NCBI RefSeq assembly: GCF_024204685.1
Contig: NZ_CP100350.1
Span: forward strand, 2,644,501-2,708,500
DNA: 64,000 bases
Reading direction: 5' to 3'
Source of the DNA: Gilvimarinus sp. DA14
GTDB lineage: Bacteria > Pseudomonadota > Gammaproteobacteria > Pseudomonadales > Cellvibrionaceae
Shown: positions 23,874-51,745 of the stretch, piece after piece
Layout of the letters: each line of letters opens with the position of its first letter
Numbering within the stretch: the first letter of the stretch is position 1
Notes under the pieces: generated by a model
Database searches by the model: none
Told to the model about the DNA's origin: nothing
Seen by the model: the letters and a program-made list of their open reading frames with translations, nothing else
Position numbers and translations under genes: made by a program

Positions 23874-23973
23874 GGGGTGTCCTGTGGTGGATAAATGGGC
23901 CGCTGTGCTCAGCGTATAAGTGTGTTGGTTGGGTGTTTTGGTGTGGTTTTCAATGGTTGGGGGCTTTTTGTTT

Positions 23974-24215
23974 GCCCGTGTCGCCGGGCGTTGCGAGGTA
24001 CTTTTGGTCTTGGCCAAAAGTACCCAAAAGCCGCGCCCTAACATCTGGCCCTGCGGGTCCCCTCATTCCAATCGATTTTAGCGGGCCGTATCGACAGCGC
24101 GTCCATGCGCTGGCGATACTTGCGCAAAAGCGGCCCAGGCCGGTCTCTCTGCCTTCGGCATTCACCTTCTCCTGTTTGCTTACCCCCTAAAATCGATTTC
24201 CATTCGGCCTAGATG
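23974..24215. repeat. Dispersed structured repeat, copy A
   Basis: A roughly 240-base non-coding element that shares 24 of 25 bases at its start (GCCCGTGTCGCCGGGCGTTG...) and a common fold with copy B at 51531-51745. It holds a short GCCCG/CGGGC hairpin, an 11-bp hairpin (23997-24007 with 24014-24024), outer arms AATCGATTTTAG/CTAAAATCGATT (24070-24081 with 24187-24198), a 6+6-bp hairpin with loop GTCCAT (24088-24119) and a small CGGC/GCCG hairpin. Stems differ in sequence from copy B but stay paired. I know no name for it. Confidence 0.8.
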
Positions 24216-24318
24216 TAAACGGGGCAAAAAAGCAGTGCTTCGTAGCTAAGTTGAGTCCATCGGGCCTAAAGAGGCAAAGCATTGCTCTAGCGTCAGACCT
24301 CCGACATCAGACGTCCGA

Positions 24319-24346
24319 CGTTAGCCCGTTGCAAAACGGGCTAACG
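24319..24346. repeat. 12-bp perfect hairpin with GCAA tetraloop
   Basis: CGTTAGCCCGTT and AACGGGCTAACG pair perfectly around the loop GCAA, a GNRA tetraloop. No T tract follows on either side, so it is not an obvious terminator. It directly abuts a 17-base sequence (24300-24316) found again, inverted, at 59614-59630. Confidence 0.7.
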
Positions 24347-24618
24347 CATGGCACTATTTTCTTCATCAAACATGCGCTTATTGTTGTCACGCAGTACAAC
24401 TATAAATCAGTGGCTTAGCCAGGAGGCTGAGATTGGGACAGGGCAGTATCTACAGAATGACGCATGCCCTTCTTTTTAGATTCCGTGTTCTTCGTTTTCA
24501 GGGGAAACCCTTGAACACCGCGCGGTAGAGTTCCTGGGGTTAACTAAAAAATCCATTATTTTCAGTGGGTAAATTGTATCTTTAGGCAATTTAGATAGAT
24601 CCACTGAATGCGGTATTA

Positions 24619-51530: not shown

Positions 51531-51745
51531 GCCCGTGTCGCCGGGCGTTGCGAGTTACTTTTTAGGGGTAAAAAGTAACCAAAAACCTCGCCCAACAACT
51601 GGCCTCTTCGAGGTGCCCTCCCTCCAGCCAATTTTAGCGGTCGGTCTAAACCGCACATCCCTGTGCGCTTAGACCTTTCGCGCTCGTCCAGAGCGCTCAA
51701 CCCCTAAAATCGGCCTCCACTCGGCTCAGTTGTAACCGGGCGAAC
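51531..51745. repeat. Dispersed structured repeat, copy B
   Basis: The second copy of the element at 23974-24215. It starts with the same GCCCGTGTCGCCGGGCGTTG and has an 11-bp hairpin GTTACTTTTTA/TAAAAAGTAAC with loop GGGG (51554-51564, 51569-51579). Outer arms GCCAATTTTAG/CTAAAATCGGC (51627-51637, 51704-51714) enclose GGTCTAA/TTAGACC plus CGCACA/TGTGCG with loop TCCC (51643-51675) and GCGCTC/GAGCGC (51680-51696). It fills the 432-base gap between the glycosyltransferase and lldD; the rest of that gap holds nothing I recognise. Confidence 0.8.

Follow-up and report, generated by a model that had tools for sequence, protein, structure and literature searches.

What keeps the shape of a non-coding repeat constant while its sequence drifts, and in which molecule does that shape act? 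The question is raised by two elements in the window, the whole stretch of 64,000 nucleotides that was analysed (positions 2,644,501-2,708,500 of a single-contig Gilvimarinus genome of 3,956,837 bases). An earlier note on this DNA had placed one element near 24.0 kb and the other near 51.6 kb, had argued from compensated changes that structure is under selection in a non-coding dispersed repeat, and had proposed either a functional RNA or a hairpin-processed mobile element.

Both elements are present at those places, with the extents redrawn so that the conserved unit is the one listed for each copy in Table 1. Three base pairs differ between the copies in the 11-bp hairpin (H2), and all three are compensated (23998/24023, G-C to T-A; 24006/24015, G-C to T-A; 24007/24014, G-C to A-T). 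The central hairpins have unrelated stems, with a two-helix layout common to both copies and TCC in the loop, and outer arms built on ATTTTAG/CTAAAAT enclose the hairpins in each copy, all as the note had described. The description nevertheless needs amending. The layout extends to an outer helix, a small hairpin with a GNA loop (H3) and, in many copies, a pseudoknot, and the same fold holds for both copies as a layout, but not for the loop insertion, which is found in copy 1 only. Read as a minus-strand RNA of about 215-255 nt, the architecture consists of the outer helix P0, the helix P1 with H4 and H5, and the hairpins H3, H2 and H1, with H3 competing for bases with P0. In the pseudoknot, which is seen in many copies and in other subfamilies, the loop of H2 pairs with bases upstream of H2. 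A UNCG tetraloop on the plus strand was considered as well; it fits the copies of this genome, but several distant copies do not fit it (by eye).

Table 1. Features of the element, its copies and its surroundings; positions are those of the window unless a locus is named.
Feature	Position	Strand	Remarks
Element copy 1	23974..24228	-	255 bp including loop insertion; R2 match 198.0 bits, E 3.4e-56; R1 match too
Element copy 2	51531..51745	-	215 bp; R2 match 193.3 bits, E 8.3e-55
T-rich tract abutting copy 1	23965..23973	+	TTTT within 18 nt in 28/41 copies
H1 hairpin, copy 1 (GCCCG/CGGGC)	23974..23989	-	sequence; helix 1 of 26-copy alignment
H2 hairpin, copy 1	23997..24024	-	helix 6 of 30-sequence alignment; pseudoknot is helix 5
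H2 hairpin, copy 2	51554..51579	-	three compensated pairs relative to copy 1
P0 outer helix, copy 1	24042..24215	-	arms about 24042-24051 and 24206-24215; covariation alignments (26-copy, 30-sequence)
H3 small hairpin, copy 1	24049..24057	-	C-GCA-G triloop; sequence and loop class
P1 helix, copy 1	24070..24198	-	arms 24070-24081 and 24187-24198; encloses both GGA hairpins; covariation alignments
H4 hairpin, copy 1	24088..24119	-	loop AUGGAC; TCC at 24102-24104; helix 4 of 30-sequence alignment
H5 hairpin, copy 1	24124..24179	-	GGA at 24170-24172, split by loop insertion; helix 3 of 30-sequence alignment
Loop module, copy 1	24131..24169	-	39 bp, directly 3' of GGA in H5 loop
Second dispersed repeat	about 24240-24560; L038:9668-10089; L041:1076-1504; L059; L049
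Sites retained in congeners	L034, L045, L033, L031, L028, window copy 1

The two copies belong to a large set. A covariance model built on 26 copies of this genome (R1) matched the genome 45 times at E<=1e-3, counting a few pieces of split copies, and a second model (R2), for which copy 2 was among the sequences used, gave 44 matches over 22 loci. We count 41 copies, namely the 44 R2 matches minus one 34-base palindromic-hairpin match and with the pieces at L040 merged, a count that leaves out two R1 matches near 85.3 kb and 2.41 Mb. A minus-strand DsbA-like gene (start codon inferred) has copy 1 on its 5' side, at a distance of about 100 bp, and copy 2 sits between the facing 3' ends of an ORF with no Pfam match and an FMN-dependent dehydrogenase gene. 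A second dispersed repeat, about 300 bp long and with conserved blocks, adjoins the 5' (RNA-sense) side of one subfamily of copies. Short GTCGGACGTCTGATGTC repeats are found near copy 1 at about 24300-24325 (by eye). Several copies of this and of distant genomes share a CTACGRAG box shortly before the RNA 5' end (by eye; an example lies near 24240 in the window), and this box may mark the true end of the element.

Is the shape under selection? On both strands, both window copies fold more stably than any of 200 dinucleotide shuffles (z -4.9 to -7.2), and the larger alignments carry the argument further. In the 26-copy alignment, 28 of 55 pairs are altered on both sides and the covariation score is 0.330 versus 0.115 in shuffles (0 of 500 shuffles as high on either measure), with slid partners reaching at most 0.083. 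One of five measures in this alignment, the number of further pair types, showed no excess (44 versus 45.2 in shuffles; 388 of 500 as high). One subfamily of this alignment has the outer part of H4 shifted by one column (69.9% paired); the placement is set right in a later alignment (A3), from which one subfamily still departs. In a 30-sequence alignment on the other strand, including seven copies from other genera, 44 of 63 pairs change on both sides, the score rises to 0.400 versus 0.139, and further pair types do exceed the shuffles (103 versus 84.4). The pseudoknot covaries there too, 3 of its 5 pairs changing on both sides in columns with gaps in 12 to 16 of the 30 rows. Finally, in 83 copies from 54 loci of other genomes, 57 of 58 pairs change on both sides and the score is 0.632 versus 0.150, in an alignment fitted to the model, with seven rows that helped to build it and related rows that are not independent. 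Both-side changes and covariation score exceed 500 of 500 shuffles and all slid-partner controls in all three alignments. Additional copies thus show compensated changes in their stems rather than random, uncompensated ones, and the proposal of selection for structure in a functional RNA is supported by these changes and by the membership of the core in an Rfam RNA family, discussed below.

Which strand folds? A pair that reads A-C on the plus strand is G-U on the minus strand, so an excess of A-C cells in the plus reading points to the minus strand. In a sequence-only alignment (A1), H2, P1 and H5 hold 22 A-C and no G-T cells in the plus reading; the G-T/A-C counts are 3/1 in H1, 7/11 in P0 and 27/38 in the whole alignment, and H4, with 17 G-T and 4 A-C cells, is misaligned there. 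When the copies are fitted to a plus-strand model (A2), the counts are 11/50 for H2, P1 and H5 together, 15/2 for H1, 30/15 for P0 and 67/83 overall, while an alignment fitted to a minus-strand model (A5) has 193 G-T and 73 A-C cells in the minus reading. The trend is therefore reversed in H1 and mixed in P0, and from the three clean helices we infer that the minus strand is the folding strand. The hairpins of the earlier note are real, but it had drawn them on the opposite strand. Folding with RNA parameters also finds the minus strand more stable in 114 of 117 copies, an advantage that may reflect base composition only; we set it aside because such energies are composition-prone, random segments of the window differing by 11.4 kcal/mol on average.

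The strand and the fold lead to a known family. The core of the element is that of TwoAYGGAY (RF01731, clan CL00106), as shown by sister copies that score above its gathering threshold of 43 bits. Seventeen matches at or above the threshold were found in sister copies and other genomes, all on the RNA (minus-sense) strand: three in six loci of this genome (49.1-49.8 bits, two in L028 and one in L041, with three more below threshold), seven in 20 distant loci and seven in 20 further loci. The window itself has no Rfam match at gathering, its copies falling below the RF01731 threshold, and copy 1 gave nothing relevant even at E<=5. The RF01731 matches cover no more than the P0/P1 part. A pair of hairpins ending in AYGGAY-like loops is present, and the stems covary on the annotated strand (H1 and partly P0 without the wobble asymmetry). 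Neither attC integron sites nor group IIC introns matched at gathering in the window or in the 20 and 20 distant loci. Considering all of this, we are nearly certain that this is a structured element of the TwoAYGGAY family; within that known RNA family, whose function is unassigned, it is a longer form present in many copies. In the parts of the literature available to us, the family was published in 2010 as a candidate RNA, probably an RNA and not cis-regulatory, reported from the human gut, gammaproteobacteria and Clostridiales (PMC2864571), and a CsrA-binding role was later proposed from motif matches, with the function still called unknown in 2014 (PMC4333381). Rfam gives its type as Cis-reg. 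The passages seen that name TwoAYGGAY or RF01731 describe neither dispersal, pairs nor loop modules. Relative to those passages, the full-length architecture with its covarying pseudoknot, the distribution, the divergent pairs, the modules in GGA loops and the carriage in MITE-like units are new here.

Of the 44 rows from this genome, GGA is present in the H5 loop of 41 of 41 scorable ones and in the H4 loop of 40 of 40; for the 83 rows from other genomes, the figures are 59 of 65 and 58 of 65 scorable ones. H5 often has a pentaloop such as AGGAC, and hence AYGGAY is not strictly matched. In the H3 region, C-GNA-G accounts for 19 of 22 triloops of this genome and 20 of 24 distant ones, in a scan that found no triloop in 7 of 44 and 33 of 83 rows, respectively, and picked H4 or H5 in some.

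How far does the element extend beyond this genome? By sequence alone, not far: its first 24 bases occur exactly in 15 stretches of the named genome collection, all from three Gilvimarinus species, and blastn with copy 1 matched 8 of 38 genomes, which are all eight Gilvimarinus genomes searched, and none of the 30 outside the genus. Covariance models reach further, to 16 of 61 genomes (12 of 32 genera) in the family, 27 of 145 (19 of 88 genera) in the order and, with R2, 75 of 276 sampled genomes (65 of 216 genera) in the class, the present genome included each time. These surveys used strict filters that lose weak matches, their E-values are rough and their weakest matches may be partial; copy numbers per genome are lower bounds, at most 35, 14 and 8 candidates having been scored in family, order and class. 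Searches of plasmids with L113 and L137 and of phages with copy 2 gave no match. Copies lying less than 300 bases apart are mostly divergent in the RNA sense, 20 of 24 pairs in other genomes (3 are convergent and 1 is tandem) and 3 of 4 in this one. At L040:1546-3706, a FemAB-like gene is enclosed by two divergent copies that stand 1.3 kb apart. Among the 25 largest clusters of ORFs from 81 loci that overlap in part, no mobile-element protein recurs beside the element (by eye), and many of the clusters are frames read through the element itself. The only recurrent neighbours in these clusters are dnaE2/imuB-like ORFs (named by eye from the translation), beside L085/L101 and L116; the elements at L085:1181-1746 and L116 belong to two genomes of different families.

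Copies kept at the same site in congeners (Table 1) have 95-98% identity in the element and 81-98% in the flanks, while at L038:1551, L043 and L041 the flanks are better conserved than the element. Two congeners have copies of different subfamilies, oppositely oriented, at one shared intergenic site (L044:1340-1860 and L067). Taken together, the retained and changed sites indicate that many copies are old and that some sites turn over. Three copies, at L032, L036 and L039, lie in MITE-like units of about 442 bp with imperfect terminal inverted repeats (TIRs). The flanking 11-bp duplications are exact at L032 and L036 and near-exact at L039, where two congeners (G003 and G007) have empty sites. 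Facing pairs of the TIR pattern occur at these three places; single matches elsewhere are at chance level (20 in all versus 16 with a control pattern). The L036 unit sits in a stretch resembling the GTCGGACGTCTGATGTC repeats (by eye). No unit was recognised around the other 38 of 41 copies, but further units may be missed, because the scan requires an exact duplication within 260 bases and passed over L039. Three further copies pass its loose score with no recognisable TIR, as do 18 of 300 random segments. From the TIRs and duplications in the sequence, the mover of the unit would be a DDE transposase.

A second kind of variation lies within the loops. Modules of 39-43 bp are inserted right after GGA in hairpin loops; by motif, 8 of the 41 copies carry the 43-type module and 6 a 52-base type, which has an AUGGAU-like hairpin of its own. 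An exact pattern search found 18 first-type modules in six of the eight Gilvimarinus genomes (a control pattern found none), 17 directly after GGA and one after CGA, and a covariance-model match covers each of the 18, several being weak (21-47 bits). The module of copy 1 is absent from its counterpart in G. xylanilyticus (L010); a G. chinensis copy has a module between GGA and TGTG that the corresponding copy of this genome lacks (L033/L051); and a 52-base module present in this genome is absent from its counterpart at L045/L047. Such differences may be gains or losses. No target duplication is visible at the modules in two presence/absence comparisons.

What, then, does the folded strand do? 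We take the element for a probable RNA gene that spreads, and not for junk DNA, because its shape is kept by paired mutations and it has two GGA loops resembling those bound by CsrA. That it acts as RNA rather than as single-stranded DNA has, in our estimate, a probability of about 0.65. Covariation, the G-U pairs of the minus strand, the location of all 17 RF01731 matches on the RNA strand and the high identity of retained copies support this reading. It is weakened by the contrary or mixed wobble in H1 and P0, by the sites at which the element is less conserved than its flanks, by the lack of a conserved promoter 5' of the RNA in the 40 of 127 rows inspected (by eye), and by the lack of an evident terminator for a minus-strand RNA on the 3' side, which usually faces a convergent gene end.

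In the mechanism that we propose, an RNA of about 215-255 nt would be transcribed from the minus strand, its GGA loops would bind the translational regulator CsrA/RsmA, and it would titrate the regulator or hold it locally. Dispersed copies would raise the dose, and 52-bp modules, with their further GGA hairpin, would add sites. The element would have spread as single copies, as divergent pairs and partly as a passenger of the small MITE-like unit, the route of most copies being conjectural. Action through CsrA is the best-supported mechanism, judged from motif and loop conservation, and we rate it a little below even odds. Besides the conservation of the two GGA loops, it is supported by the finding of CsrA in 58 of the 60 element-bearing genomes checked, the present genome having two such genes, and by the copies of G295. 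CsrA was not found in that genome or in G401, of the same family; the two copies read in G295 (L199:358-499 and 798-967) keep H2, but no pair of GGA-loop hairpins is apparent (by eye), and they seem to have lost the two-GGA domain. The same reading is weakened by the near-equal frequency of CsrA in genomes with no element match (17 of 20; Fisher p 0.10) and by the very fact that G295 and G401 have element matches while lacking a CsrA match. If CsrA is bound, bacterial repeats would serve as a dose knob for a global regulator.

The strongest competitor places the function in single-stranded DNA: the minus strand would fold, a nuclease or transposase would recognise the hairpins, divergent pairs would be mobile in the manner of REP/REPIN or IS200/IS605 sequences, and modules would enter loops of the folded strand on the 3' side of GGA. 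Insertion of IS200/IS605 occurs 3' of a fixed short motif, and the GGA-following modules, with no visible target duplication, resemble it. The prevalence of divergent close pairs points the same way. C-GNA-G loops are unusually stable in DNA. Their high frequency here, the conserved GGA and the strand asymmetry are likewise compatible with a single DNA strand that folds; still, the G-U asymmetry and the pseudoknot are at least as natural for RNA, and the element is far longer than REPs, which measure 20-40 bp in the sources as far as available. A Y1 transposase (PF01797) is present in 51 of 60 element-bearing genomes versus 11 of 20 others (p 0.011), with two matches in this genome, but the association may be one of genome size because the comparison genomes include small ones. 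The enzyme is not obligatory, since 9 of the 60 genomes have no match, among them G176 (one contig), which has at least 14 element matches. The absence of a recurrent mobile-element protein in the ORF clusters described above also tells against this alternative, which we put at about one chance in four; the exactness of the loop insertions and the divergence of the pairs are what mainly keep it in play. The hairpin-processed element of the earlier note is supported in part: one MITE-like unit with empty sites in two congeners and the presence or absence of modules speak for mobility, but no processing enzyme was identified.

A bolder version, which we consider somewhat less likely again, is a mobile system of two levels, in which the element would spread as divergent pairs and the 39-43-base module would insert behind GGA in its loops. 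Folded loops would then be the insertion sites, used with no target duplication, and a structure-guided enzyme would be needed. If true, the module would rank with the smallest mobile sequences known, and movement by reading hairpins would be an unusual kind of insertion.

Could the element instead belong to the gene that ends beside it? On the plus strand, the hairpins and T tract would form a terminator or a 3'-UTR stabiliser of the neighbouring gene. In this genome, the 3' neighbour in the RNA sense is convergent in 31 of 41 copies (simple gene calls, some genes missed), so that a gene end is followed by the element; a TTTT tract is found no more than 18 nt from the plus start in 28 of 41 copies, many of which have hairpins ahead of it, and the 51 bases upstream have a mean fold of -9.5 versus -7.6 kcal/mol in shuffles. 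It is difficult to see, however, why a 3'-end element would need two GGA loops, a pseudoknot and wobble asymmetry on the minus strand, and copy 1 lies 5' of the DsbA-like gene; we regard this explanation as unlikely. Least likely of all is a selfish MITE-type transposon family with an incidental internal fold: the L032, L036 and L039 units are what favours it, but they account for 3 of 41 copies, and if the fold were incidental, 57 of 58 pairs would not covary across genomes.

The comparison with known systems sets the RNA reading in context. Like bacterial MITEs, three copies lie in TIR-bounded units with target duplications of about 11 bp, but the element is the cargo of these units and not their ends, and most copies have no recognised unit. 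Like REP/REPIN sequences with their RAYT, the element has many intergenic copies, single or in inverted pairs, but it is a multibranched structure of about 220 nt rather than a short palindrome, and some genomes that bear it have no Y1 match. The R178 and R200 repeats of P. fluorescens are likewise intergenic (101 and 320 bp); the comparison is by description only, and the part of that report available to us mentions no covariation or GGA loops (PMC2718517). CsrB, CsrC and RsmX/Y/Z share with the element GGA in hairpin loops, but here each unit has two conserved GGA loops in a multibranched, pseudoknotted fold, copies are dispersed, and CsrA binding is a prediction; known CsrA sponges carry many more GGA sites, a point against the CsrA reading. 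The closest relative is TwoAYGGAY itself, which has the same P1 helix with two hairpins, AYGGAY-like loops and a matching strand; the element is longer, having H3, H1 and the pseudoknot at H2 besides, and it occurs in tens of dispersed copies, some as divergent pairs and some with loop insertions. What was a motif becomes a testable RNA or mobile element that is longer, pseudoknotted, dispersed, fixed in strand and present in 75 of 276 genomes sampled in the class.
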